Shown here piece by piece: positions 47 to 38,470 of a DNA stretch of 64,000 nucleotides. The DNA lies in contig JABMLP010000015.1 in assembly GCA_013176395.1 (NCBI GenBank), positions 62,001 to 126,000 on the forward strand, in the 5' to 3' direction. Position numbers and translations under genes: made by a program. The notes beneath the pieces are model-generated. The model was not told the DNA's origin and did no database searches. It saw only the letters and a list, made by a program, of their open reading frames with translations. Position 1 is the first letter of the stretch; the number at the start of each line of letters is the position of its first letter. Origin of the DNA: Venturia oleaginea (lineage: Eukaryota > Ascomycota > Dothideomycetes > Venturiales > Venturiaceae).

Positions 47-1228
47 TCATTGGATGCTTGTGGCGGGCATCCCAGTCATAATGCATTCGTGATAGAAACC
101 CATTTCCAGTTCTGCAGGCGCCAGTCCGGTGGAATCGTGAGGTACGGTGGCTGCTGCAAAGTCCATGGCGGGTAACAGTTCTGAACAATTCGTCTGATAA
201 TGATCCACGAAATGGCGGAGATTAGTCTGTAAAGCCTGATTAACAATCTCAGTCTGTCCATCCGTCTGCGCATGTTCCGCGGTGCTCAATTTCCAGTCGA
301 TGCCTAGGATGGCCGACAGTTCCTTGACGAAATCCGAGATGAATCGAGGGTCACGGTCCGAGACGATGGTGTCTGGCAAGCCGTAAATGCAGTAGATGTG
401 TGTGTAATACAACATCGCTGCGTCTCTTGCTTTCACCGTCTTGTGGCATGGCAATGAGAATGGTCTCTTTCCGAAACGGTCAACTACCACGAAGACGTTG
501 TCAAATCCGTGCTTGTCTTTGTTGAATGACATGAAATCCATCGAGATGTGTTGCCACGGCCTCTGGGCGATTGGCAGAGGTTTCAGCAATCCTGGAGTCT
601 TATCTCTCGGTTCTTTGCACGATGACATGACTGACATGCACTCACAAAGGTATCGATATCTCGGCCAATAGAACTGCCTGGCAACCATGATCCGAGTCTT
701 GTTTCGTCCTGGGTGTGCTGATGGCAATGAGCTATGGACTTCCTGGAGTGGCTGGGTTCGAAGGTGGCCATCTTCAGGAACGAAGAGACGCCCTTGGTCC
801 AGGAGTAGTCCGTTGTCCTCCGTCAAGTGCGGATGCTTCTCGTTACCAATAAGGTCTCGGAAGTCGTTGAGAGATACTGCAGTGCGGTTTGTCTCAAGTA
901 GCCGATCTATCAAGTGTACCTGTTTGCTGCTAAGAGAGATTGGTAATAGCTCAACATTACCTACCACTGAGTCTGGGATGAGCTGCATTGTTCGCCCTTG
1001 CTCGGCAATAGCCTTCTGAGTCTGAAGCTCCTCTGCTTTCCGTGATAGAGCGTCTGCAATGATGTTTTCTTTGCCGGGTCGATACACAATCTTGAAGTTG
1101 AAACCTGCAACAAAATCCGCCCATCTAGCCTGTCTTGGCCTCAGTAATCGCTTGGTGGTAAAGTACTCAAGCGCTCGGTGGTCAATAATGGCGGTGAAGG
1201 TATCCTTGAACACCTCGTAGTTCACCAC
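47..1228 (-). pseudogene. Pol fragment 3 of gypsy element 1: RNase H tail and integrase
   Basis: 393-aa frame. It begins with the end of RNase H (DHRALEYFTTKRLLRPRQAR, PGKENIIADALSR) and continues into a gypsy integrase with the core triad visible as D in SMDFM, D in SDRDPRF and E in QTEIVNQ. The zinc-binding HHCC segment is damaged: its Cys part (TFVSACQSCHRAK) is encoded only in a neighbouring frame over about 612-690, bracketed by two opposite shifts that restore the frame. The last residues are near the left edge of the window and may continue outside. Confidence 0.88.
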
Positions 1229-2252
1229 TGAACTCTTCCAGGCCTCGAATCAGGGCTAGCATTTCCTTGTCATGGATCTCGTAGTTCATCTCATGAACGT
1301 TCATAGTCTTGCTGAAGAATGCAACAGGGTGTAGCTCACCATCATCACCTCGCTGTGATAATTGGCCTGCAACAATGCCGTCGGATGCGTCGGTCTCCAT
1401 AACTGTTTCTCGGAACGGATCGTACAGTGCCAATACTGGTGCAGTGGTAAGGGCTTGTTTCAGTTTCTCAAAAGCATCAATGCAGTCTTCGTCAAAGTCG
1501 AAACTGGCTGACTTCCGGGTCAGGCGAATGAGAGGTCTGGCAATGCGGCCAAAGCCCTTGATGAACTTGCGATAGAAGTTACAGAAGCCAATGAAGCTTT
1601 GGGTCTGCTTGACCGACTTAGGCTGTTTCCAATACTTCACAACAGCTATCTTCTCAGGATCCACGCGAATTCCCTTGGTGCTAATGATGAATCCTAGATA
1701 TTTGGTCTCAGTTACATCGAACTCGCTTTTCTTGATATCGCATTGAAGTCCCGCCTCCCGAAGGCGTTGCAGCACCTTGTGTACATGCTCGGTGTGGGTC
1801 AAAGGGTCGTCTGAGTAGATGAGGATATCATCCAGGTATGCAGTGCAGAAGTCGTCGAGGTAATCCATGAGAACTGTGTTCATATACCGTTGCCAGGTGG
1901 CCGGTCCATTGGCCAGCCCTTCCATCATAACTTTGCATTTGAAGCTGCCATATCTGGTGCGGAATGTCGTCAGATCTTCAGAGTTGGTAGCCATGCGAAT
2001 GCGATGAAACGCCTGTCTGATATCCAATTTGGTAAACACCTTGGCCTTTGATAGGCGGTTCATGGTTTCTCCAATCAATGGGATAGGATACCTGTCCTTT
2101 TTTGACAGCGCATTGAGTTTGCGGTAATCAATGCAGAATCGGTATTTCTGCTTCTCCCCCGCAGGAGTCGGCTTCTTGACAATGAGAATTGGCGATGCAA
2201 AGGCGATGAACTTGTCTCGATGAAGCCTGACTCTAGATTTCGTAGGAGCCAT
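1182..2252 (-). pseudogene. Pol fragment 2 of gypsy element 1: reverse transcriptase and start of RNase H
   Basis: 356-aa frame with the RT palm motifs: FCIDYRKLNA, the KLDIRQAFHRIR motif, and the catalytic box YLDDILIYSDD. The thumb/connection follows, and then the first part of RNase H (ETDASDG, HPVAFFSKTMN, NYEIHDKEMLA). The frame breaks near 1215, where the continuation (DHRALEYF) switches to another frame. Both ends are frameshifts relative to an intact gypsy Pol, so this is a decayed copy. It has few stops, so decay looks recent rather than due to heavy repeat-induced point mutation. Confidence 0.88.
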
Positions 2253-5837: not shown

Positions 5838-6503
5838 TCAACAAATACTGATTGCGTAGATTTGAGCATTGGGCTGCTTAGAATTCCATTGAAAAGCGTG
5901 AGAGTTGACAATCTTCCAATCGCGAGGGGAGTCCGGGGTTTCTTGAGGGGGTGCGCGGGCACCAAACGGGAGCGGGATATACTCAACAGAGCCCTTGTGG
6001 CCCTGAAGAAATTTCTTAGAACAGTGGGTACCGAAGTGAATACTACGATTCTCAAAATCGAGTTTCACACCGTGGAGGTTCATCCAGGGAGTGCCAAAGA
6101 TGACTGCTGCGGAGCCGAGACGGGTAACAAAGAATTTCGTGGTTTCGAGGTGGTGTTCTCCGGTTCTGACGGAGACGTGGATTTCGTGAGTAACGTAAGA
6201 GGGTGCAGAGGATGCCTGTTCGTCGTCAAAGGCTTTGAGGCGGCGGGGGTTTTCGAGGGGAATAAAGGGAAAGCCATGGGATTGCGCAAAATCGAGGTCT
6301 ATGAAACTTCCTGTGGCAAAGGAATCAGTAACGGCGAGGGTTTTGATCGATTCATTAAGTGTAATTGGGACTATGATTGGTCTAGAGTCTACTGGTCCAT
6401 CAATCTCTCCTGTTGATTTCTCTGAGTAACCTAGAACTGCCGAACTGATGTGAAGAACATGTCGTTTCGATTTGTTGTCGTGTCTCGATGAACGTCTTTT
6501 CAA
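5838..6503 (-). pseudogene. Truncated aspartic protease of retroelement 2
   Basis: 221-aa frame resembling the retropepsin-like region after fungal gag: a predicted beta strand, an active-site-like segment, VSVRTGEHHLETTKFFVT and the ILG-like VIFGTPWMNLHGVKLDF. The active-site loop reads TDSFATGSF where the family normally has D-S/T-G-A, so the key glycine is replaced by F and the enzyme is probably dead. The frame ends at 5838 without any RT, just before the LTR of element 1. Confidence 0.7.
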
Positions 6504-8074
6504 CGAGACTGTGAGTTTTCCGAACTCGGGGTGTATGGGGCTGATCCGAAGCCGTAGCTTGTGGTGCTAGAAGAGGCGGTAGAACCTGAGCGTTCTTCAG
6601 GGCCTTGAGTGATCCGGGGAGTCTGGACGTTCTGTGGATACGCTCCCGATGCTCCTGACATACTCATATTGCTAAAGCTCACAGGGGGAATGAAGTTTCG
6701 AGCTCCGGAGTTGCCAAACTGCATGGGGTCACTGGCGAACTGGTTGGGAGTAGTGAACTGATTGGAGGGACGTCCACGCTGGGCTTTCTTAGGGCATACG
6801 GCGGCGATGTGCTTCTGACCATTAGGCATAATTACTACGGGCTCTCCGCAGTATCCGCAACGGTTGTTGGTCTTTCGCCATTGGATATTGGCGGCTTTCT
6901 CTTCCAGGGTCCAGGATGCAATTGGTTTCATCTGGAGAGACGGGAGGCAGGTACCTATGTCGGCGCCGGCACTACCGTTGAGGTTCATAACTGAAATGTC
7001 CATGGCATCTCCGAAAGCGTGAGAAGTGGCGGGGGAGACTAGGAATGCGCGTTGGGATGCAGAGGGAGCGGTAGCTGATGTAGATGATCCTGAGAATACG
7101 GGAGCTTTTCGAGCTCGAGAGATTTTCTCGAATTGTTTCATGTTGGCTTCGCAGTTGTGGCACAGATCGATTAACTCCTCCAGTTTCTTTGTCGTAGGGA
7201 CGTGAATCATTGCTCCGCTGAGTTCTGCGCTCAGGCCGTTGCGAAAGTTGACAATCATAAGTTGTTCCAAGGGGTTTGCGGGTTCTGAGACGTGAGGGAG
7301 GGTGATTCCGGCTTCTTGGAGTAGGCGTCGGAAGTCTGCGGCGTAAGTAGCAAATGTTCGGTTTGCCATCTTGTGGTTCTGCAGCTTATTCATAGCATCT
7401 TGAGTATCGAAACGAGGAGCGTAGCTGTCGTTGAGTTTTGAGATAAATTCGTCGAGGGATTCAAAAGACCATGAATTCGTAGTTTCGTTGTAGTATGGGC
7501 GAATTGTGGATTTGCACTTGTCGTCAAGTCGATTGAAGGCGTAAGTAACTTGTGAGTTTACTGAAGGGAATGCTTTGGAGTCTGCGCTGAGTTTTATTCG
7601 GAGGTCTAGGAGCCAGCTCTTGTATTTGTTTTTATCTCCTTCAAAGATAGAGATGTCGCCTTGGGTTGGTCGAGGGGCGGAGATTTCGCGAGAAGTAACG
7701 CCCTGGAGTTCTGCTCGAAGGGCGCGAGCTTCGTTCTCAGAGGCTTCGAGCTTGAGTTCTTGAATTGAACGGGACATGGTATTCTGGTCTCGCTGGGCTG
7801 TGTTGAACATATGGGAGATGGTAGCTAAAAGCTGGAGGAGTGGGAGCGCCGAAGCGCGGTCGAGAGTAACGTGTGAGACTGGGACGTATTCATTTTCGTT
7901 GACTGAGGCTTCGTCCGCCGGGGTTGCAAAGGTAGCTTGGATCTTCTGAGTAAGGGTTGCTGCGAGTCTAGAGGTTATAGAGAAGTCGTAGAAGGCTAGG
8001 GAGTTTTCGAGAGTACTGTTTTCGAGGGTGGTAGTATCGTCCGCAAGGGAGGGAAGGTCGAGAATTCGGGGCAT
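6500..8074 (-). CDS. Gag-like protein of retroelement 2
   Basis: 524 aa, open throughout. It has a capsid-type retrotransposon gag region (about residues 135-330, including FEGDKNKYKSWLLDLRIKL and FATYAADFRRLLQEAG), then a Ser/Ala-rich linker and a C-terminal zinc-knuckle-like Cys/His group (CGYCGEPVVIMPNGQKH...VC) near residue 405, ending in a low-complexity S/G/Y tail. Its stop overlaps the start of the protease frame by four bases (ATGA-type overlap), typical of an element making Gag and Pol from adjacent frames. Confidence 0.82.
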   Translation of the reverse strand: MPRILDLPSLADDTTTLENSTLENSLAFYDFSITSRLAATLTQKIQATFATPADEASVNENEYVPVSHVTLDRASALPLLQLLATISHMFNTAQRDQNTMSRSIQELKLEASENEARALRAELQGVTSREISAPRPTQGDISIFEGDKNKYKSWLLDLRIKLSADSKAFPSVNSQVTYAFNRLDDKCKSTIRPYYNETTNSWSFESLDEFISKLNDSYAPRFDTQDAMNKLQNHKMANRTFATYAADFRRLLQEAGITLPHVSEPANPLEQLMIVNFRNGLSAELSGAMIHVPTTKKLEELIDLCHNCEANMKQFEKISRARKAPVFSGSSTSATAPSASQRAFLVSPATSHAFGDAMDISVMNLNGSAGADIGTCLPSLQMKPIASWTLEEKAANIQWRKTNNRCGYCGEPVVIMPNGQKHIAAVCPKKAQRGRPSNQFTTPNQFASDPMQFGNSGARNFIPPVSFSNMSMSGASGAYPQNVQTPRITQGPEERSGSTASSSTTSYGFGSAPYTPSSENSQSR

Positions 8075-8662: not shown

Positions 8663-9352
8663 TAAATAGATTCTGTTTGAAACTAATTGATATATATTTC
8701 CTAATGGGGTACATCTCGTGATTTTCATGTGATTTCTAGCCTATTTACCTAAACCCGAATTTGCCAACAAGATTCAATCGTTCTAATCGTACCAGCTCTC
8801 ATCATCTCATTTCTCGCGTTACAAAAAATCTTATTACCACAACTGACTCTTCAAACTGGATAACGACACCCGAAATCTCCACCCCAAGATGCCCGTCCAC
8901 CACCAAACCCAACAACAATCAATCCCCATTACAATCTCATCGCTCACAGCATCGCCTATCACCTCTTTCAATTGGCCACCCGATGCCTAAACTCCGTCAG
9001 CAATGCTGCTTCCGCGTCGCGCATATGTCGGAAGCACAAATTAATTAACTGCGTCCGCGCAGATGAATCAAGCTTCTCGCTCCGCAGGGTCTACACGCGT
9101 CGTTAATAAATCTTCCATAGTACCTAGCTGGGTATAGAGAGGAGTATGACTCGCTTTCTCAAGAATGATGGTTTGGAGCTTGAGGACTTTTTGCTGTTGT
9201 TGATGAGTTTGGTGGCGTTTTTGGGTATGTTGTATTGTTTTTGTCGTTGTACGGGTCTCGTATTCCGTGCTTGGAGAATGAGGGCGTTCTTGTTCTGAGA
9301 GTCAAGAGCTTGGGAATGGACTTAGTTGCCCGGACTTGCGTTTTCGCTAACA
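8663..9352. other. Intergenic segment, possible 7TM gene remnant
   Basis: No complete gene is visible. From the ATG at 9146 (plus) a 50-codon frame with a hydrophobic helix (DFLLLLMSLVAFLGMLYCF) resembles the start of a Pth11/rhodopsin-like fungal membrane protein, but it stops near 9296 and the presumed continuation is in other frames. I treat it as a possible decayed fragment, not a gene. Confidence 0.3.
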
Positions 9353-11434
9353 ATGTATACAGCAGGCAGCTTTGTCCTACTCAAGATGTACACGACGCAT
9401 CTCTTGTACCTATCCTTCCTACCCAGTTGGACGAGGGCTGTAGTCGTGGGAGAGGATTTCCGAACCAAGTGCTTGAAGTTCGAACCTAGATTCGAAAATG
9501 CGAAGGTTGAGCTTATCGAACATTATATCAAGGGCTCGATGGTCGCGTTGCCGTATCGACATCCAACATGTGGTGGGCTTGGGAACTCGGCGATGCTCTC
9601 TCAGGATGTTTGCCGTGTAGCGCTGCGGGTTGATACTTCGGGGCGTTCTGGGATACATTTTGAGGCTTGGTTTCCTGCAACTTATAGCGGGAGAATTTTG
9701 GGTACGGGCAATGGAGGTTTGAATGGATGTAAGTTATCAGCTTCTCACAGCGGGTTCCTCGATTCATGCCCGCATTGTCTTTGGTAGCACTTTTGAGGAC
9801 ATATATTCATGCAACCTCATCGAACCAGAAACCGAGATTGCTAAACTGTTGGTAACGTGGAAGAACCATCCGGCCAGAAATCAAACGATATCGATCTGGG
9901 TTTGACAGAGTTGCATTGAAGTATGTCAATTCTAGGCGGACATGAGTTGATTGTCGGGCTGTAGAACCATCATCTTGCGATTTGCTGAAAGTAGCAGGCC
10001 TTGACTATACCGGCCTTGCATATGGCACTCAACAGCAATTCGCCACCTTTGCTGCCAACAACGGGCACAATGGCTCATCGGGAGTAGAGTTCTACCACAA
10101 TGCAGACGTACTTCACGATTATGCCGACCGATCCTTGCACGTCAGTGTGGTTGTCGGCAAGACATTGGCGCAACAGTTCTACGGGAGCGAACACAAGAAA
10201 TCATACTTCCTGGGCTGCTCTCAAGGAGGTCGCCAAGGCATTGCCAACGCAGAGAAATTCCCGGCTGACTTTGATGGTATAGTCGCAGGGGCACCGGCAT
10301 TGGATTTCAACAACATGGTCTCGTGGCGGGGCTCATTCTTCCCCATCACAGGTGCTACGACATCTCCTGACTTTATTGCACCTGGAACTTGGTCTGGTTT
10401 GATTCATGATGAGGTACTGAAGCAATGTGATGGACTCGATGGGGTGAAAGATGGAATCATCGAGTACCCTGATCTTTGCCAATTCCAAGCTGAGGCTCTA
10501 CTATGCTCGCCCAATAGAGTTACGAATTGCCTAACTTCCAAGCAAGTGGATATCGTCAAGCGCGTCTTCTCTCCCTTCAAACATGGAGATGGAACTCTGA
10601 TATTTCCTGGTCTCCAAGTCGGCAGCGAACAACGGGCCATCGATCAATTGCTAGCAGGGAAACCGTTCAGCGATTCTAAAGACTGGTTTCAGTACGTGGT
10701 TTACTCCAACACAGCGTGGGATCCCGCTACTCTTACAACCAAGGACGCTCGTCTGGCTCAGCAACTGAATCCGTTCAATATCCGTACTTGGCCATCGCCG
10801 CAGGATCTCTTAGAATTCACGAAGAGAGGGAGTAAGATTCTCACATACCACGGTATGCAAGATCAACAAATCACAAGCTACAATACTGCCAGATGGTACG
10901 AATATCTCAGATCAAAAAGCTCGGAAGAGGAGATCGGAAAGTGGCTCAGATACTTTCGTGTCTCAGGAATGTATCATTGCGGTGGTGGACCAGGGGCTTC
11001 AACGATCGGCCAAAGTGCCTCTAAACTTCCCTTCGAGTCGAAATCGAATGTTCTCGCTGCATTGGTCAGCTGGGTTGAAAATGGTGAAGCACTAGAAGAG
11101 CTAGAGGGAACGAAATTGAGTGATGGCGCTGATGCGAAAGTGCTATTTAAGAGGAGGCATTGCAGGTAAGTTTCCTCACTCTCTTGGCCCTCCAACAGCA
11201 AAGAGCGATCAGAAGTTTTAGAAAATCCTGGTTCGAGATCGATATTGTTCAATCTCTAGCAGTCCTCGGAAAATCTCGATTTCCTGATGAAGATGACATG
11301 TAAATATCCGTTATGGAGCTACAGACTAATTCAGTACCAGATATCCCAAACGCAACACATACCGCTCACCAGACGGCTCCAGAGGAAATAGTCTTCCTAA
11401 AGGCTCGATGGCAGACGAATGGAAATGTACTTGA
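9353..11434 (+). CDS. Tannase/feruloyl esterase family secreted esterase
   Basis: Three exons: 9353-9728, 9998-11165, 11341-11434; introns of 269 and 175 bp with GT-AG ends; 545 aa. Joining restores family continuity at both junctions (GGLNGC/LDYTGLAYG and RRHC/RYPKRN), and the protein ends W-K-C-T as many relatives do. The catalytic triad is visible: Ser in GCSQGGRQG, Asp in GMQDQQI, His in MYHCGGGPG; paired cysteines flank it as in the family. Such enzymes hydrolyse feruloyl or galloyl esters of plant material outside the cell. The start is uncertain: ATGs at 9353 and 9386 give a hydrophobic N-terminus that is not a textbook signal peptide, and sequence just upstream looks like a remnant of another membrane protein. 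Which ester it prefers cannot be told from sequence. Confidence 0.85.
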
Positions 11435-11457: not shown

Positions 11458-12220
11458 TCAGACTTTGCGAAGCAACTTCCCATATAGCTTAGATTTCTTC
11501 ACGCTTCCGATACCCGTGAGATGTAAGCTGAGATCTGACATGTCGGACCCCGCCTTCGGCTTCAATCGCCAAGCCGTATACCCAGAGGCGTCCTGTTGCT
11601 TTTTGTCGGTCGTTTTGCTCATAGAATGAAGTAAATGGCAGAAATCACCGACACACACCATATCTGCTCCTAGAGCCAAAACTTTTACCACATCAGTGCC
11701 ATTACGCACGCCGCTGTCGAATATGGTCACTGTCTTGTCACCTACCGTATATGCAATTTCTGACAGCATGTCTAGGGGTCCGTAACCTGCGTCCACTTGT
11801 CTGCCTGGAAATCATTATCGTGTACTCAAGTTTTTGGGAAGACCGCTCAAATTACCTCCATGGTCCGAGACATGAACCCCGACCATGTCAGCATCAACGC
11901 CGATTGGGCATCTTCTATAGACTGGATTCCTTTCACCACAATCGAAATCTTCCGTTAATATCTCCGAAGACTTAAATTTTCCCAAGTATGTGGCATACCT
12001 GGAATGAAATCTTGCCCAATTGGCCGCCGCTGTTCCGAAGTTTTCTTCAAATTCTTGCCCATATTTCTCTTCGGGCATTTTGTAATACAGCAGATCTTTC
12101 AAACCTAGCGCAACACCCACATTATCCTGTCTCAAGAAAGTAAAATACCCATCATCTTGATCGCCGGGACGCTAACCCCTGATGGTCTTGTATTGGTTGT
12201 GTTCGTTGTCAAGCCAGTAA
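11458..12220 (-). pseudogene. Decayed FMN-dependent 2-hydroxyacid dehydrogenase (lactate monooxygenase-like)
   Basis: Minus-strand pieces match the C-terminal two thirds of FMN alpha-hydroxyacid dehydrogenases: RPGDQDDGYFTFLRQDN, then FHSRYA, TWENLSL, ISIVVKGIQSIEDAQSAL, DADMVGVHVSDHGG, RQVDAGYGPLDMLSEI, FDSGVRNGTDVVKVLALGAD. An intact 51-bp intron (11805-11855) splits DHGG and RQVD, showing descent from a real gene. Damage: TAG at 12172-12174 where the family has Trp (G-W-R-P), TAA at 11955-11957, and at least two frameshifts (before TWEN and after QSAL). The N-terminal third is missing. The enzyme would have oxidised L-2-hydroxyacids using FMN. It converges on the tannase gene, 23 bp apart. 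Confidence 0.8.
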
Positions 12221-13017: not shown

Positions 13018-14103
13018 TCACGGAACTGGCGGCGTAATAATATTGCCCCCCAACGGATCCGCATCCTCCGTAACAATCAACTTCCCCTCCCCATCAACAG
13101 GAAACGAAGGTCCTACGCAAAATTAGCACCAAATCATCACCAAAAACGAAAACATGCAAACCAAACTCACCAAAAACCGGATGCACAACCGTAACATTAT
13201 CATAAAGATCAAAACTCCTCTCCGCAGCCCACCCATCAACAACATCCCAATCATAACAATCATGCTCAATCTCAAAATTAGCAAAAGGCCTCCGATTATT
13301 ATCAAGCCAATCATACGTCTGCAACGAAATATCGGCCTTACACATCACCGCCATCCTCAAATTATCGATGCAGTGGTCGAGGTGCTCGGACATGTGGCGC
13401 ATGGGGCGCTCGGTGTAGTAGGAGGGGTAGAAGGCTTGACGGATCATTTTTAGACAGTGCAGTTGGTGGTGGACGTTTAGTTCAGACATGTACATGCCGC
13501 TGTTATCGGAGAGGGGGATGGAGGTGCGGTTTATGGCGCGCAGGTCGGAGGCGGAAACGCGGATATTTGAGTTTTTGACGAGATTAGCCCAGACGGCGTC
13601 GAGGTCTGGACGGGGGGGGCCGCGGTAGGGGTTTAGGGTTGCAATGTCGTCTTTGAAGAGGATTTTTTGGGGGATGTGTGCTGAGCGTGCTGGGGCTGGT
13701 TTGTGATGTTAGTGTCATTGCTTAGAGGTATCAGAGCTGCGAATGTAAACCAGTCTGTCAATTAGTATCGATATCGATAAAAATTGCCAGAAATCTATCG
13801 ATATCGATGTAGACTTAGAAGTGATGAGTTGGTTTCAGCAGTATGTGGAGGGGGCAGAGGTGGAGAGAAAAAGAGCGGCGATGAGACGAGCTTACAATAG
13901 ATTTGGTCCTGATGTTCCGCAGGAGAGACATTGTTGACAAGGACTAAGTATACGAAAGTATAGGAGATAATGATGGTAAGATGGATGAAACTCCAAGGTA
14001 TAGCCATACGTCGTGTATGGGAAGTTTTGACGCCTCGTTCTGCTTGAACGCTCTCGATGTTAAAGTCCTCGTCGCTGAGACGATCGTATTTTGCATTGTC
14101 CAT
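13018..14103 (-). CDS. UstYa/DUF3328 family oxidase-like protein, candidate RiPP-modifying enzyme
   Basis: Three exons on the minus strand: 13896-14103, 13171-13695, 13018-13112; introns 200 and 58 bp with GT-AG ends; 275 aa. One N-terminal transmembrane helix (about residues 34-57) anchors a lumenal domain with the two family motifs HHQLHC (145-150) and EHLDHC (173-178), the HxxHC pairs thought to bind metal. The exon junctions give the usual Y-SPA start of the domain after the helix. Known members (UstYa/UstYb, AprY, PhomYa) carry out oxidative cyclisation of Tyr-containing core peptides in dikaritin RiPP pathways; others act in cyclochlorotine-type pathways. The repeat precursor 1.4 kb away, divergently transcribed, is its likely substrate (inference). 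The first intron carries a near-palindrome of ATCGATATCGAT repeats. Intact, no damage seen. Confidence 0.9.
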
Positions 14104-14596
14104 GGTGACCAGTCAGTGATGAAAGGTTTTTCTATCGTTTGAGACTCAGAAGGGTCTTCATGACGGACAAACGCAGTCTCATAGATGATTGCTAATCATG
14201 CTGATCATGACAATGACACTACGATCAGTGATGGAACATAAGGCTGACAGCCAACCATGGTTTATTCTCGAGGTGACTTCGGCCTTGCCGTTTGTTGTAC
14301 ACGCTCGTAAATCAATGCTACATTATGGCGTCAACAAGCGGAACCGGTACGTGCAACATGGTCGGGAGTTAATTCCGCGAATTTATGGAGGTTCTGAGGG
14401 GTGTACGACCTTTATAAGGACCAATGATGGCCGAGATACGTTACTGCGTGTAACCAAAACTTCAGCGATGGTCCCACAGAATATCACCCGCATAGGGATC
14501 TCACCGCAGGATTAATCAAGCTTTGGTTGATCTCACTGCAGGATTGGCCAAGCTTTAATCAAGCTTTCCACTAAAATCCGGGGCTCGGAGCTTGTG

Positions 14597-15345
14597 CAGG
14601 GCGGTCACGGGAAAATGGACCAGGGTTAGAGGGAAGAAGGGAAATATAGTAGCAAGTCAGCCCTGTAGTGCTTGTGGAGTAGCAACGGGCCGTATTAGGC
14701 TACGCGATGGCAAAAGAAGGCGTATGAATCTCTCCATGCAGCGTTCCAAAGTTCTGGCAATGTGCTCAAAGAATTGCAGGGGGGTCACAGGAAAATGGAC
14801 TATGGTTGAAGGGAAGACGGGTTGTATAGTAGTAAGTCAGCGTTGTATTGCTTGCGGAGAAGCAACAGGCTGTATCAGACTACGCGATGGCAAAGGAAAG
14901 CGCATGGATCTCTCCATGCGGTGTTCCAAAGTTCTGTCAATGTGCTCAAAGAATGCTTGCCAGCAGGCCCTTGTCAGCGAGAAAGTCAGTGGCGATCTCG
15001 GAGTGAGGTATTCGAAAACCGTGATTGGAAATCAATCGCAGAGAATGTGTCAGATCAGCGTCGCCTTCAGCATCAGCAAGGTCGATGGGAAGGAACACAA
15101 AGTATGCGTAGTTCGGCCACAGCTCTTTTGGTTGGCGAGAAAGTCAGTGGCGATCTCAGAATGAGATATTTGACGACCATGGATGGCAAGTAAAAGGGGA
15201 GACTGTGACAAGTCAGAGTCACATTGAGCATCAGAACCGTCTTGGGGAAAGGAAGACAAACCATCGGCAGCTCACAGGTCAGCGTCACATTGAGCATCAG
15301 AACCGTGTTGGGGGAAGAAAGACGAACCATTGGCAGCTCGGTGGA
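14597..15345 (+). repeat. Three sets of degenerate tandem repeats in the divergent promoter region
   Basis: Three successive repeat types fill the spacer between the UstYa gene and the precursor: two 180-bp units (14597-14776, 14777-14956), two copies of a segment starting GCGAGAAAGTCAGTGGCGAT about 158 bp apart (near 14979 and 15137), and two 66-bp units containing CACATTGAGCATCAGAACCG (near 15220 and 15286). The 180-bp units are about 85 percent alike by eye and keep an open frame (a 60-residue repeat ending MCSKN), but that frame has no family match and ends in unrelated sequence, so coding is doubtful. Confidence 0.8.
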
Positions 15346-15384
15346 GCTTTGGAGCCCCGATGTAAGGAAGTTGTTGGATCTGTG

Positions 15385-15390
15385 TATAAA
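15385..15390 (+). promoter_or_regulatory. TATA box of the repeat precursor gene
   Basis: TATAAA 96 bp upstream of the precursor ATG at 15481, directly downstream of the tandem-repeat block. Position suits a pol II core promoter in filamentous ascomycetes. Not experimentally supported. Confidence 0.5.
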
Positions 15391-15480
15391 GACACCAAAT
15401 TCCACAGCGAGAAAATTGACTCAACGCGAGCACTTCACATTCCCACATCTTCAATACCAAGTCCTTCTCTCCAAGTCATC

Positions 15481-16598
15481 ATGCAGTTCTCAGCTCAAAT
15501 CCTTTTGGCTCTTTTGCCTTTGCTCGCAAATGCGGTGCCAGTACCGTCGCAGCGTGAGTCTTTCGAAAACGCGGCCCAAATTTTCAACTCTTCCCCATCT
15601 TGGCCAATATACATCTCTGCAGAGAGTCTCACGGCCCTATATGAATGTCGTTGAACTTCAGGGAAATCTCCAGATTTGGATTCCCAGAAGTTTGACAATA
15701 TCTATCCTAGGTTGAAAGTGCTCGACTCTTTCAGGATATGCATTGGAGACTTATGACCGAGAACCATGCATATGAGACCCGAAAAAGATGCTAACAGTTC
15801 ACAGCAATCCAAGGCTCCGCCATTGCAGCCCGCTCTGAAGAAGCAGACGCTGGTATGAGCTATTACAAACGCGACACGGCCGACGCCGATGCTGGAATGA
15901 GCTACTACCGTCGTGACACGGTCGACGCCGACGCTGGCATGAGTTACTATAAGCGCAACGAGAACGACGCCGACGCTGGCATGAGTTACTATAAGCGTAA
16001 CGAGAACGACGCCGACGCTGGTATGAGTTACTACAAGCGCAACGAGAACGACGCCGACGCTGGCATGAGTTACTATAAGCGCAACGAGAACGACGCCGAC
16101 GCTGGCATGAGTTACTACAAGCGCGACGAGAACGACGCCGACGCTGGTATGAGTTACTACAAGCGCAACGAGAACGACGCCGACGCTGGTATGAGTTACT
16201 ACAAGCGCAACGAGAACGACGCCGACGCTGGTATGAGTTACTACAAGCGCAACGAGAACGACGCCGATGCTGGGATGAGCTACTACAAAGAGAAACGTGC
16301 TCCTGTCGAAGGATCTGTCGCAGAAGCTGATGCTGGTATGAGCTACTACAAGGAGAAGCGAGAGGCGGCTGAAGATTCTGTTGCTGATGCTGACGCTGGG
16401 ATGAGCTACTACAAGAGAGCTGAAGAGGCAGATGCTGGTATGAGCTACTACAAGAGAGCTGAAGAAGCAGATGCTGGAATGAGCTACTACCGACGAGACA
16501 CTGCTGATGCGGATGCCGGTATGAGTTATTACAAGGAGAAGCGAGAAGCTGCCGAAGAATCCATTGCAGAAGCTGATGCGGGTATGAGCTACTACTAG
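15481..16598 (+). CDS. Secreted Kex2-processed repeat precursor, dikaritin-type RiPP precursor candidate
   Basis: Two exons: 15481-15553 and 15805-16598, 251-bp GT-AG intron, 288 aa. Residues 1-18 form a clear signal peptide (MQFSAQILLALLPLLANA); a short leader follows. The rest is 17 copies of (A)DAGMSYY. Sixteen are followed by a dibasic site, KR (11), RR (2) or KEKR (3), and the last by the stop codon. Spacers are mostly NENDAD, DTADAD or EAxx types. Kex2 in the Golgi would cut after the dibasic pairs; the DA/EA dipeptides before the core suit dipeptidyl aminopeptidase trimming. The invariant Tyr-Tyr end offers phenols for oxidative cross-linking, as in ustiloxin and asperipin precursors. 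The adjacent UstYa gene strengthens this. Alternatives: an uncyclised repeat peptide or a pheromone precursor; the latter is less likely because the repeats lack Trp and Cys. Confidence 0.88.
15844..16598 (+). repeat. In-gene tandem repeat, 17 core units
   Basis: Unit length is 42 bp for the first ten copies (14 codons), then 63, 63, 39, 39, 42 and 63 bp. Copies 3-10 are almost identical at DNA level, with mainly silent C/T differences, whereas the later ones differ in spacer length. The core codons vary silently while the AGMSYY residues never change, a sign of selection on the peptide. Confidence 0.93.
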
Positions 16599-17199
16599 CG
16601 GCAAAAAGCAGAAGTAAACTAGGACTAGTGGAGGCTCGCGAGATGACATGGTGCTTGTGTTAGTGGTTAGTAAAGGGATTGTGCAGCGATTGATGGGATT
16701 GGACCACTCTTTGGCAGACTAGATATGAATGATGAAACTTGTCTCTCCTTAAAACACGAGATGTGTTTCGTATGTGATTTTAGTGATAAATCGAGAGCAG
16801 CTGGGACAAGCTGTAAGGGCCGCAGGTAAAGAAGGCAGTCCTCGAGATGAATTAGTGATCAGTCCCGTTTGTTGTCGGTATCCTCAATTCAAATCCGTAT
16901 CTCCAAGATTTCTGTTATATGAGTTCAGAGCCTCGCCAGAAAATCATCGATATTGATCTGGAATCGCGGCGTTTCTGGTCGGAAAGAAAAGTGCTGATGG
17001 TCGTCCTCGTTCGTGAGTCGTGGCAACATCTCAACGCCGGTGGATAGTTGCTCAGTAGTACAAGATGACATTGTTGCTATTACTTTGATGGTGGCGATGG
17101 CGTTTGTGCTGTTTGGTGAGTGCTGTTTGGTGTTGGAGAAAGGAGGAAGATGAGGAAGAGGTGGGAGAAGAGAGAAGAGAGCAATGCACGTGATGCGGA
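16599..17199. other. Intergenic, no supported gene
   Basis: Downstream region of the precursor gene. Only short unconvincing frames; near 17160-17210 the minus strand may still belong to the hypothetical gene to the right. Confidence 0.5.
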
Positions 17200-18537: not shown

Positions 18538-19397
18538 CTACTTCATACTCTTGACAAACAGCATGCGCATCCCCTTGAAAAACGGTCCCAGCTCACGACT
18601 CTCGTTCAACTTCACCACCTCAGCCTCGACCTCTGAATTTTCTAGCTTGGGATTCGTCTTCAAAACCCTGTATTCCCTCGAACTGGTATCCAGTTCAAAC
18701 CACGCCTCCCTCTCCCAATCCCTCTCACAAACATGCGTGAAGTTGAACTTTAACCGGTCTTCCTGTCCACATCCCGAGATGCCCATACAGAGGTGATCTT
18801 CCCAGAACTGCAGTTCGGGCACATTATGTCTGCTTTGTCCCTGTAGGTATTTTGCATGTTGCGATTGCTGCGATTTGCGCGCTTGCAGTGTTTGTTGGAG
18901 TTGGGCTAGCTCGCTTGTGAGGGTTGAGCGGGAGGAGAGGAGGTTATCGCGATGAGTCTGGAGGTGGGCGATTTGGCTTTGCATTTCTGATTTTTCGGCC
19001 GTTTCTTTCTGGAGAGTGGCAGTGTGAGATTGGGCTTTGAGGGTTTCGATTTCGATTGCGCGGGAGGCTTGTTTTTGGTCCTCTGTTCGCAAGATTAGCC
19101 AAAGCTCATGGTGATTTGGATGCGCTGATGAATGCGCTAGAGTTCTGGTCGTCGGCGCATACCTTGCAGTTCGGTCACATTCATCCTGAACTGATTCCTT
19201 TCCTCCAAAACCCTCTTCCGTCCCTTCTCGATGAATTCATCGAAGCGCGATGTGAAGCGGTTCATGTGCTCGCGCAAATGGTCAAAGTTGAAGTTGACGC
19301 TAGGGAGCTGGTCGGCCATGCTGGGGCCATCTTGGTTGAGGTGGGTGCGCGACATGGATGCGCTGAGAACGGGTTCGTAGGACATTGTGGAGGTCAT
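18538..19397 (-). CDS. SPC25: Kinetochore protein Spc25
   Basis: Two exons: 19163-19397 and 18538-19082, 80-bp intron; 259 aa, normal for fungal Spc25. The N-terminal two thirds is coiled coil (about residues 45-165, heptads through ETLKAQSHTATLQKE and LTSELAQLQQTLQ), ending in the globular C-terminal domain (FNFTHVCERDWEREAWFELDT, VVKLNESRELGPFFKGM). Spc25 pairs with Spc24 in the Ndc80 complex and holds it to the inner kinetochore, linking chromosomes to spindle microtubules. Start taken at the ATG giving MTSTMSYEP; an in-frame ATG further upstream (19502) gives an Asn-rich extension and seems less likely. It is head-to-head with RRN6, the starts 312 bp apart. Confidence 0.9.
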
Positions 19398-19709: not shown

Positions 19710-22700
19710 ATGGTTGATTCTACCCTCCAGGACCACAGCTACGGTCATTTTGGGACTCCAGTATACGATGTACAGAATAAAAGGTGGGTTTTCGGAAGAA
19801 GTGGTATAAATTCCTGGCATTATCGACCTTTGGGAGACATCAAACGAACAGTTGCCGGGACAAAGGATGTTGGAAGAGAAGGCAGAAAAGAGGCCGAGGG
19901 ACTGGATCAGGTGTCTGGTAGAGCTTTGGCGAAAGAGATTCTACGGGCTGTGCAAGGCAATCCAGAGCTCCAGGCCGCTGAGCACATTTTAAACCCTATA
20001 ATACGCGCATCGGAGGCTGTGGTCGCCGCCGTAGCAAAGTACGATCCTGCGGTTGGAGATATACTCGCGTTTGGTACTGCTGCCGTCAGTGATGGCCAGA
20101 ACCGACACCACAAGATAAGACTGTTGGCTTTGCCGGGCGGAGAATGTGGAGAGATGCTGAGATTGGTTCAATCGGAGACTAAGACATACGGTTGCACTGA
20201 ACAGGCGGTCCATTTCGTGTTGCCCGTACCATCTGATGAGATTGGCTGGTGGTTAGGCAAAGGTGCACCAATACAACAGATCTGCACACCAGAAAACTTG
20301 TCGCAAGAAGATGCAGGCAGCTTCTTGGCTGTTCGCTTACCAGGCACTACTCTGGTTCTTCGTCCTCGATATCGTGCGACGCCTGTTCCTCCTGCGGGTA
20401 TCTACTCAGGCTGTACGATACCCCCTTCTCGTGTTGACGCGAATCTGCTACTTGAAATCTACCCGAGAGACTGTAACTGTCAACAGCACGCTGATGTCAC
20501 ATTCGATCCATGGAATCAACATCGGTTGGCCATTGCGGACTATGCTGGGAATTGGGGTACCTTCAAGCTGCAGCCGCTGCACAGAGGCAGCCAGTTGTAC
20601 AAGTGGGATTTGGGCCAGCGCGGTTCTCTGGAGGGCATTTTCCAGGCATCGAGCCCAAGACAGGACGTATCTGCTGCACAACAGGACGGCTGGGCCAGGA
20701 TACTCTGGATCGCGGACAAAAACACCCTCCTTGTCTGCACTCGACGTCAATTTCAGCTCTTTTCTCTCTCTGCTGAGACTACACTGCCTTTTCTCTCGTT
20801 TCTTTCAAAGGACACATGGATTCTCGACGTCAGACGGTGTCCTACTGTTCCTACTTGGGTTTTCGTCCTGACCTCCACGCAAGTTCTCTGGCTAGAGATA
20901 CTGCCCGAGATCGACCGCGGTACCGATATCACAGCCACGGCGGGCAAGATCCTACTGTCAGCGCATCATTTTCGGGATCCGAGCGACATCAGCTTGCAGA
21001 TGAGTATTGAAAATGATTTGGATGGTACGTAAATTCCTTGAAACTGAACTTGACAATGCTAATTCTCTAACAGCAATCTCAATTTTGCTATGGTCTCGGA
21101 ATAGTCCACTGGTTACGTGTCTACGATTTGATCGCCAGGAATCAATCACTGGTCTGCCGTCCATGATAGGATCGCCCACTGAATTGCTGCTCCCTATGCC
21201 TGGGAATGGTAACATGTTGCCTACAGTAGCAATCTCAGTACGTCCTGTGGAATATACGGCCGAGAATGAAGAAGACCCACGTCTGGATTTGTATTCCCTC
21301 CAGCTACTTACTGATGATCTTGCCCTCCATCAAGCATTTATGAGCTCTTCAAACAGTACAATGCCTACAGATGCACCCCGCCAAATCACTAGTACTCGAA
21401 TCAATGTCAAAAGTGCGCCTATTGTAAACGATGACGATGACGACTTCATTGTACCAGATGAGCTGTCCCAAAAAAAGCCACGTTCTCGACCGAAAACAGC
21501 AGCCAAATCGCATAAAGTCAGTTACAGCAACGAAAAGGCCGGGAAAAACAAGCATACTGAAACGAGTTCAACGGTCGATAATCGAGTCATCACTTCAAAA
21601 GTTTCTGGAATCTCGACACAAAAAGATCGCCAGAAAATTATCGATATCGCAAACGGTTTGCAAGATCTCATTCTCAACGAAGATGTTCTGGGCCTCGGAG
21701 AACCGACTAAGACCCTGCTTGAACAGTCTCTCAACCCTGTTCCCGAAGTTGGTGAGCTATCTGAAACCTCTCAAGTTCTTTCAGAACTCTTGTCTCTTTC
21801 AAGACCTGGTCCGGTCCCTGACGAGCCTGGTGTGATGGTCAAGAGACTCCAGATACCTGCCTGGGCTTCTCCAATGGGTGTTTCATCTGATAATCTTGAG
21901 TTTGGTGGCCTGTATAACCACATTGTCGAGCATCAATTGACGTCTCTGGCTGATGAGATTCCGTCCCGTTTCCGACTGGTACGGGAGAAGCTCGCCCGCC
22001 AGATAGCCGCAGAAGTCATCTTGTCAAGCTCACGCGTTGAAGTCGTGAATCCACCAGAAGACTCGCAAGAACAGGAAGAAACGCAACAGTCTTTCTCATT
22101 CCATAGCAAGGGAAAAGACAAGCTTACAGATTCATTCCCTGTATCCTCCCAGCTTTCCGAGTACATGTTCTCTCAAGCACTCCCAACACCCTCCACGTCC
22201 GCCTCACGCGCAGCCTCAACAATAATGTCAGAAACAACAATCTCCCTCCCCTCAGCCGCATCTCAAAGCATCATTTCCAGCCTATCTCGTCACGTTTCCT
22301 TCAAACCGCCATCTACATGGGATAGAAGACCAATGGCCCTGCTAGCCCATTGGAACATAGGCGCCGATCCTAATACTTACAGCTATTCTCAGAAGCTGAG
22401 AGAACTGGAGGAACAGAAACAGGAGGAGAGTATGACAGATAAGCAACGGCTCAAGGCAAGGGAAAAGGCTGAACGGCGGCTTAAGAGACAGAGAAGGGAG
22501 GCGGAGAAGGCGAGAGGAGCGCTGATGAGTAGTCAGCCGATGGTTATGTCTAGTCAGGTGCACAGAGGTGGAAGTCAATTTGGTGGTGGGAGCCAGTACG
22601 GTGGAGGGAGTCAATATGGTGCAGGCAGTCAACTTGGTGGCAGTCAACATGGCCGTTCTAGCCCTCCTCTGCCATCTAGCCCTCCGCCTGTAGTGGATAG

Positions 22701-22830
22701 AGAAAGGGACAGAGCCTTCGCGATGAGTAGTCAACTCGTTGCACCACCAATGGTAGGTAGTTCCCAGGCGCCCACAAGAAGAGGTGATGGGCCCCCGAAG
22801 AAAAAGAAGAGAAAACGGGAGGGCTTTTAA
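19710..22830 (+). CDS. RRN6: RNA polymerase I-specific initiation factor Rrn6-like
   Basis: Two exons: 19710-21024 and 21074-22830, 49-bp GT-AG intron; 1023 aa. The N-terminus (YGHFGTPVYD...W.F) and following beta-propeller-like region, including PWNQHRLAIADYAGNWGTF, match the fungal Rrn6 family, as does a C-terminal helical part and a low-complexity tail ending in a basic cluster (PPKKKKRKREGF) that should act as a nuclear signal. Near 22560-22660 the tail has a GGGSQ-type repeat (SQFGGGSQYGGGSQ). With Rrn7 and Rrn11, Rrn6 forms core factor, which recruits Pol I to the rDNA promoter. Length and architecture are normal; no damage seen. Confidence 0.85.
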
Positions 22831-36966: not shown

Positions 36967-38470
36967 TTCAACGGAACTGTAAGGACGATAGCGGAGAGCC
37001 CCATCGGAGGCAGAGCCAGACGATACGATCGAAACTAGACTCGCGAGGGCGTCGGCCAGATGTACCTATAGAGATGGTCCCCAACGGAGGAATGCAACGG
37101 CAACGGCAACGGCCTCCATCTCTTAGGGTTGATAAACGCCGAACGATCGGACGGCTCAACAATAGTTCAACGGAACTGTAAGATCGAAAGCGGTGAGCCC
37201 CATCGGAGGCAGAGCCAGACGATACGATCGAAACTAGACTCGCGAGAGCGTCGGCCAGATGTACCTATAGAGATGGTCCCCAACGGAGGAATGCAACGGC
37301 AACGGCAACGGCCTCCATCTCTTTAGGGTTGATAAACGCCGAACGATCGGACGGTTCACCAATAGTTCAACGGAACTATAAGATCGAAAGCGGTGAGCCC
37401 CATCGGAGGCAGAGCTAGACGATACGATCGAAACTAAACTCGCGAGGGCGTCGGCCAGATGTACCTATAGAGATGGTTCCCAACGGAGGAATGCAACGGC
37501 AACGGCAACGGCCTCCATCTCTTTAGGGTTGATAAACGCCGAACGATCGGACGGTTCACCAATAGTTCAGCGGAACTGTGAGATCGAAAACGGTGAGCCC
37601 CATCGGAGGCAGAGCTAGACGATACGATCGAAAACTAGACTCGAGAGAGGGCGTCGGCCGGATGTACCTATAGAGATGGTCCCCAACGGAGGAATGCAAC
37701 GGCAACGGCAACGGCCTCCATCTCTTTAGGGTTGATAAACGCCGAACGATCGGACGGTTCACCAATAGTTCAACGGAACTATAAGATCGAAAGCGGTGAG
37801 CCCCATCGGAGGCAGAGCTAGACGATACGATCGAAACTAAACTCGCGAGGGCGTCGGCCAGATGTACCTATAGAGATGGTCCCCAACGGAGGAATGCAAC
37901 GGCAACGGCAACGGCCTCCATCTCTTTAGGGTTGATAAACGCCGAACGATCGGACAATTCACCAATAGTTCAACGGAACTGTAAGATCGAAAGCGGTGAG
38001 CCTCATCGGAGACAGAGCCAGACGATACGATCGAAACTAGACTCGAGAGAGGGCGTCGGCCGGATGTACCTATAGAGATGGTCCCCAACGGAGGAATGCA
38101 ACGGCAACGGCAACGGCCTCCATCTCTTTAGGGTTGATAAACGCCGAACGATCGGACGGTTCACCAATAGTTCAGCGGAACTGAGATCGAAAAAGGTGAG
38201 CCCCATCGGAGGCAGCTAGACGATACGATCGAAAACTAGACTCGAGAGAGGGCATCGGCCGGATATGCCTATAGAGATGGTCCCCAACGGAGGAATGCAA
38301 CGGCAACGGCAACGGCCTCCATCTCTTTAGGGTTAATAAAGGCCGAACGATCGGACGGTTCAACAATAGTTCAGCGGAACTGTGAGATCGAAAGCGGTGA
38401 GCCCCATTGGGGGCAGAGCCAGGCGATACGATCAAACTGGACTCGAGAGAGGGCATCGGCCAGGCCGTTA
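36967..38470 (-). repeat. 200-bp minisatellite made from RNase H coding sequence
   Basis: Seven tandem units begin with TTCA(A/G)CGGAACT at about 36967, 37165, 37365, 37564, 37767, 37967 and 38168, and a partial eighth at 38368, spacing 198-203 bp. Each unit fuses two separate pieces of the upstream RT-RNase H gene: a copy of the segment encoding SAFINPKEMEAVAVAF..GPSL and a copy of its last part encoding ADALSR..FDRI.WLC..WGSPLS..QFR. The roughly 170 bp between them in the parent gene (about 38470-38640) are absent. In the units the parental VAVA run is expanded by one GTTGCC. Confidence 0.9.

Follow-up and report, generated by a model that had tools for sequence, protein, structure and literature searches.

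Can a fungus make a crosslinked ribosomal peptide from a locus that holds one repeat precursor gene and one UstYa/DUF3328 gene? This question is raised by a gene pair of Venturia oleaginea, which we analyzed within a window of 64,000 nucleotides (contig C7, positions 62001-126000, of a 46-Mb, 61-contig genome). The original prediction, made from the DNA letters, read the pair as a minimal dikaritin-type RiPP locus. That reading is supported and fits all features that we tested, and we conclude that this is probably a two-gene locus of that type, with a layout nearest to that of asperipin-2a. The prediction had placed a UstYa gene divergent to the precursor gene, and its outer coordinates, 13018-16598, proved exact (Table 1).

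Table 1. Features of the gene pair and its surroundings, in window positions
Feature	Position	Strand	Details
Kex2-repeat precursor gene	15481-16598	+	exons 15481-15553, 15805-16598; spliced translation, 288 aa
Precursor intron	15554-15804	+	251 nt, GT..AG
17-unit array	15843-16595	+	ADAGMSYY invariant, acidic spacers variable, KR/RR/KEKR boundaries
UstYa/DUF3328 gene	13018-14103	-	exons 14103-13896, 13695-13171, 13112-13018; 275 aa; PF11807
Divergent intergenic region	14104-15480		1377 bp between start codons; possible shared promoter
TATA-like sites	15385; 14411	+; -	intergenic region
180-bp tandem duplication	14595-14954		intergenic region
66-bp tandem duplication	15208-15339		intergenic region
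Integrase ORF	50-1249		left flank; Pfam; reverse transcriptase among other scanned ORFs
gag/Ty3 capsid ORF	6500-8074		left flank; Pfam
FMN_dh ORF, fragmentary	11461-11811		matches only profile positions 250-302 of 350
Spc25	18538-19092		right of the pair; Pfam
Rrn6	19710-22827		right of the pair; Pfam

The precursor, read from the ATG at 15481, has the three features of Kex2-processed repeat proteins (KEPs): a secretory N terminus (judged by hydropathy), near-identical repeats, and dibasic Kex2 sites. Its N terminus, MQFSAQILLALLPLLANA, is hydrophobic and signal-like. Seventeen exact ADAGMSYY units follow, in repeats that are mostly 14 aa long; the units are succeeded by KR (11 units), RR (two), KEKR (three), or the stop codon (one). 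The first unit comes after the leader; for the others, the distance from the Kex2 site to GMSYY is seven residues in 11 units, six in two, and 12 in three. The 17 invariant AGMSYY units bounded by KR, RR, or KEKR that had been described were thus borne out, with the invariant block extended to ADAGMSYY. In the DNA, the repeat appears as a tandem array at 15846-16288 (period 42, 10.5 copies, score 662). Two Pfam matches of the precursor, Zn_ribbon_PriA and FAD-depend_C, in which no single stretch passes alone, were judged to be repeat artefacts. An antisense ORF of 315 aa that overlaps the array (15702-16649) was rejected, as the codon changes fit the plus-strand frame.

All seven degenerate codons of the ADAGMSYY block differ among units (four codons are used for Gly, four for the first Ala, three for the second Ala, and two each for Asp, Ser, and both Tyr), while the 17 units contain no amino acid change. 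As uncorrected proportions over units that are related by duplication and hence not independent, pS was 0.72 and pN 0.00 for the block (17 units, all pairs), compared to pS 0.73 and pN 0.39 for the six codons 3′ of it (16 units, ungapped comparison). Since codons vary and amino acids do not, this is still the pattern that selection on the peptide product would be expected to give, unlike a young DNA repeat. As the ADA that precedes GMSYY is also invariant, the mature peptide may extend beyond GMSYY; alternatively, ADA may have a role in recognition or trimming.

The neighboring gene was predicted to encode a membrane protein with both HxxHC motifs of UstYa/DUF3328, and we confirmed this. The protein matches PF11807 with an E value of 4.9e-48 (164.3 bits; curated cut-off, 25), carries HQLHC at residue 146 and HLDHC at residue 174, and has one clearly hydrophobic stretch, at approximately residues 38-56, ahead of both motifs. 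Its gene contains introns of 200 and 58 nt. As unbroken alignments to homologous proteins cross both splice junctions (SPARSA and GPSFPVD), the three-exon gene model is supported. No solved structure matched the protein by sequence at E ≤ 1. An AlphaFold2 monomer of its ortholog P0001 (described below) is of moderate confidence (mean pLDDT 75.2, pTM 0.55). In this model, a long helix spans residues 35-62 and the HxxHC motifs lie on separate helices (146-160 and 170-190). Foldseek found 97 PDB matches for the model at E ≤ 10 and none at E ≤ 0.001, and thus added nothing on the fold. By the layout of motifs and helices, the model agrees with the arrangement described for CctR. According to a 2025 study, the DUF3328 protein CctR is a membrane-bound dimer that uses O2 and depends on copper, with two copper ions in each monomer, and its HxxHC motifs are needed (PMC12435403).

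To ask whether the pair occurs elsewhere, we searched approximately 5.8 billion proteins for homologs; for the precursor, the best 7995 candidates by shared words, within a length range, were scored. The only precursor relative among these was P0022 (BDZ45DRAFT_797397) of Acephala macrosclerotiorum (E 1.1e-20), which contains EDADAGMSFY five times; KEKR comes after the first four units, and KA after the fifth. The DADA context is as in the window precursor, whereas the number of units (five versus 17) and the first Tyr of the core, replaced by Phe, differ. A second search with a two-sequence profile yielded no further relative among the best 7993 candidates; its match P0023 (E 5.3) was rejected because it is 99 aa long and lacks repeats. 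Searched against the whole 46-Mb genome, P0022 matched the window locus in five overlapping matches (best E 2.4e-19), along with two others at E 0.0155.

For the UstYa protein, too, the top-ranking relative came from this species: P0001 (BDZ45DRAFT_737301) shares 62% identity over 87% (E 1.3e-95). Since P0001 matches the window gene with 288.9 bits (63%) and its next match in the host genome with only 61.5 bits (27%), the two are orthologs. P0001 and P0022, both annotated solely as hypothetical proteins, are each listed on a contig of 598262 bp; judged by this equal length, they very probably share one scaffold. The pairing of an orthologous UstYa protein with ADAGMS(Y/F)Y-type units has thus probably been kept between genera, with a core of GMS(Y/F)Y. 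Conserved linkage in relatives had been set beforehand as a test of the prediction, and the outcome that would have counted against it, no linkage, is not what the 598262-bp contig indicates. The 21 UstYa homologs also included proteins of Diaporthe eres, Colletotrichum falcatum, Phialocephala subalpina, and metagenomes. As we saw no GMSYY-type precursor for the Diaporthe, Colletotrichum, Phialocephala, or metagenome relatives among the best ~8000 candidates scored, this enzyme group is not tied to the GMSYY core, a point against our reading.

The pair sits between retrotransposons on the left and housekeeping genes on the right. The window has 140 ORFs of 100 aa or more; removing overlapped ones left 78, and we ran Pfam on 71 of these (the others start at 8740, 11625, 12717, 15705, 19140, 33344, and 35549). 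On the left flank, we scanned all 38 kept ORFs (≥90 aa) of C7:30001-60000, which contains Ty3- and Copia-type domains; C7:60001-62000 lay outside the scan. These 71 and 38 ORFs contained no domain of a P450, tyrosinase, methyltransferase, or transporter, though multi-exon genes with only short exons could escape such a scan. The view of a single UstYa gene with no such tailoring or transport genes nearby therefore holds for the ORFs scanned. A tannase-family gene, whose ORF also matches Peptidase_S9 (E 1.2e-6), lies between the left retrotransposons and the right-hand genes, and peptidase families C1 and C12 were found solely among ORFs at 37-64 kb of the window. The first 1.5 kb of C7 contains no telomere array. 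RIP indices were 0.62 and 1.31 for the left element, 0.62 and 1.32 for the tannase region, 0.65 and 1.21 for the UstYa gene, and 0.97 and 1.10 for the precursor, whose deviation is probably due to its repeat.

Across the genome, the UstYa profile gave 23 matches at about 17 places (grouped by eye). Thirteen of these places were searched for nearby repeat precursors (those on C4, C20, and C45 to 1.5 kb per side only; places on C34 and C5 and two on C2 were left out). Two further candidate pairs emerged: six units of YEDIIRDVSDRETGGV... near two UstYa genes (C9:679135-679674), and, by a looser rule only, AEAYQGFNN... / AEAYPIYNN... near one UstYa gene (C17:575153-575353). The window locus is thus not exceptional in kind within this genome.

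How the pair is classified depends on the definition used. A newer definition takes DUF3328 as the class-defining enzyme of dikaritins (PMC12048977), and the locus has the repeat precursor gene near a DUF3328 gene that this calls for. An older, five-gene definition asks for a tyrosinase, a methyltransferase, several DUF3328 proteins, and a transporter or peptidase in the cluster. The locus falls outside it, with one UstYa gene and none of the tyrosinase, methyltransferase, and transporter domains in the scanned ORFs; with its GMSYY core, it also lies outside the ustiloxin/phomopsin/POI2 subgroup, which has a YxIx core. Among known systems, the asperipin-2a cluster of Aspergillus flavus (aprA/aprY/aprT/aprR) is similar in having a repeat precursor and one DUF3328 gene, and its core, FYYTGY, is likewise short and Tyr-rich, with two adjacent Tyr; asperipin-2a contains Tyr ether rings (PMC6514808). 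Its sole DUF3328 protein, AprY, is described as essential and as the proposed maker of these rings, and the four genes given for the cluster include no tyrosinase (PMC6514808), as none was found near the window pair. However, the asperipin-2a cluster has a transporter gene and an isoflavone-reductase-like gene, neither of which was found here, and its repeats are typically 8 aa (PMC7329392) rather than mostly 14. The ustiloxin B and phomopsin pathways resemble the locus in their secretory repeat precursors, Kex2 sites, and UstYa-type proteins, but are reported to have two and five DUF3328 proteins, respectively, to need a tyrosinase, and to have YxIx cores (PMC7329392), compared to one UstYa protein and GMS(Y/F)Y here. 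The epichloecyclins of Epichloe (gigA) share the secretory repeat precursor and KR sites. Their ring uses a Tyr downstream of its partner residue, like the ring we propose below, but they differ in core sequence, in being nonapeptides, and in having Ile as the partner (PMC9233826), a residue absent from the core here.

In the mechanism we infer, which extends to the substrate relationship, the crosslink and its partner, the final peptide ends, and export, the precursor would enter the secretory pathway via its signal peptide. Kex2 would cut after KR or RR (and KEKR) to release up to 17 peptides ending in ADAGMSYY. A Kex1-type carboxypeptidase would trim the basic C-terminal residues. As KEKR follows the core in three of 17 units here and in four of five in Acephala, KE would stay on these cores unless trimmed further. 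The UstYa homolog, membrane-anchored, lumen-facing, and probably copper-binding, would oxidize each unit, and the core would be released by peptidases encoded elsewhere. The fourth residue of the core differs between the two genera (Tyr here, Phe in Acephala) while the fifth is a shared Tyr, so the predicted crosslink likely runs through this last Tyr. The ring would most likely join its phenol oxygen to a side-chain carbon; that this carbon belongs to Met or Ser is a guess. Known rings join Tyr and Ile in ustiloxin and phomopsin, and a C-terminal Phe and Leu in victorin (PMC9233826). That the GMSYY core lacks both Ile and Leu counts against the crosslink reading, and so does the Phe of victorin, which shows that known rings can use an aromatic other than Tyr.

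The absence of Ile and Leu also favors the view that the UstYa homolog modifies the peptide without cyclizing it, by hydroxylating or otherwise oxidizing Tyr or Met. CctR itself acts as a hydroxylase, and halogenation too has been linked to the family (PMC12435403); more broadly, DUF3328 proteins hydroxylate, chlorinate, and act outside RiPP pathways (PMC12435403, PMC12048977). We nevertheless consider this unlikely, as the system nearest in layout, asperipin-2a, with one DUF3328 gene and a Tyr-rich core, is a cyclization pathway (PMC6514808). This view overlaps with a dikaritin-type locus, and the likelihoods we assign hence do not add up to one. It is less likely still that the precursor is processed like yeast α-factor into linear, unmodified secreted peptides (signals, effectors, or pheromone-like) and that the UstYa gene is a chance neighbor with another substrate. 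In its favor, the (D/E)ADA endings of the spacers are similar to the dipeptidyl-aminopeptidase spacers of α-factor. Also, most Kex2-repeat proteins in a 2020 survey (6120 of 7878) have no DUF3328 gene nearby (PMC7329392). However, UstYa places number about 17 in the 46-Mb genome, which gives a rough estimate of 0.002 for such closeness by chance, and in the second genus the UstYa ortholog and the precursor relative are each on a contig of the same size. Every core contains Tyr, which the survey finds in 65.6% of repeats with DUF3328 nearby versus 38.2% of those without, and annotated mating factors and pheromones in it lack DUF3328 neighbors with three exceptions (PMC7329392). The precursor also did not match the mating-factor profile in the Pfam scan, and a DUF3328 gene adjoins it, unlike normal pheromone precursors.

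The left flank, rich in retrotransposons, and the fragmentary FMN_dh ORF would suit the remains of a larger cluster, now in decay, that was broken by these elements and whose product has been lost. We regard this as very improbable, as the two genes are intact and retain clean splice sites and conserved residues, and no amino acid has changed in 17 blocks. A dikaritin-type locus therefore remains our preferred reading. A bolder version of it, in which a single UstYa enzyme makes a new type of ring (C-terminal Tyr phenol to Met or Ser of GMS(Y/F)Y) in at least two genera, with trimming and export encoded elsewhere and a locus smaller than the four-gene asperipin-2a cluster, is tentative and on balance doubtful.

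The novelty claimed in the original prediction held in part. Within the open-licence PMC literature, no paper with a fungal title contained GMSYY or GMSFY; as the supplementary sequence tables of the KEP survey (PMC7329392), which includes Phialocephala among its genera, were outside this search, the core may already be listed there. The novelty of the locus type was somewhat overstated: in Ascomycota, repeat precursors are often found near DUF3328 genes (PMC7329392), and single-DUF3328 clusters, such as that of asperipin-2a, are known. The survey reports 7878 Kex2-repeat genes, 1758 of them with a DUF3328 gene within 15 genes and of very diverse types (PMC7329392), and nine such clusters are reported in a Venturia genome (PMC9632046). 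The pathway type is thus already known, and it is the peptide sequence that seems new.

The locus stands above average for its kind in three ways: relatives of both genes occur in a second genus, the Tyr/Phe change is informative, and the locus is small. With one precursor and one enzyme, it could show cleanly whether one DUF3328 protein suffices to crosslink a ribosomal peptide. GMSYY and GMSFY amount to a natural substitution experiment, in which Phe can take the place of the fourth-position Tyr and the Tyr at position 5 is kept. If the ring exists, it would, since the core lacks Ile and Leu, need chemistry unlike that of ustiloxin, phomopsin, and victorin.

To the left of the UstYa/precursor pair, the tannase/feruloyl esterase gene, for which an upstream exon is possible, is probably unrelated to the pair. 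The neighboring FMN-dependent dehydrogenase fragment looks decayed, or else represents a single exon.

Enzyme genes and repeats in the window, and repeat-containing loci elsewhere in the genome (C, contigs of the same genome; L, loci outside the window, numbered locally)
Feature	Position	Strand	Details
Tannase/feruloyl esterase gene	window 9326-11169		PF07519 on 9982-11169
FMN-dependent dehydrogenase fragment	window 11461-11811	-	profile positions 250-302 of 350 only
180-bp tandem duplication	window 14595-14954		two copies, within divergent region of the pair
66-bp tandem duplication	window 15208-15339		two copies, within divergent region of the pair
Tandem array, 200-bp unit	window 36967-38451		7.4 copies, 93% matches
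Candidate repeat precursor	C9:679135-679674 = L015:4135-4674	-	6 units KR-YEDIIRDVSDRETGGV(I/V)A(N/H)K
Short repeats with Tyr	C17:575153-575353 = L017:8153-8353	+	AEAYQGFNNKVSKGKR / AEAYPIYNNSVSKEKEKR
Two identical Kex2-repeat-like protein ORFs	L026 and L027:1474-1920; C45:1607263 and C60:49826	+	QEDLNSILDALNSNSPDDANAARSAINKR type

The Kex2-repeat-like ORFs on C45 and C60 have no UstYa neighbor within 80 kb among the genome's 23 profile matches. A UstYa gene (C17:573034-573826) is located ~1.3 kb from the Tyr-containing repeats on C17. Two more, at C9:681908 and 682855, lie 2.2 and 3.2 kb from the candidate precursor on C9, immediately upstream of which is a signal-like ORF start in a different frame.
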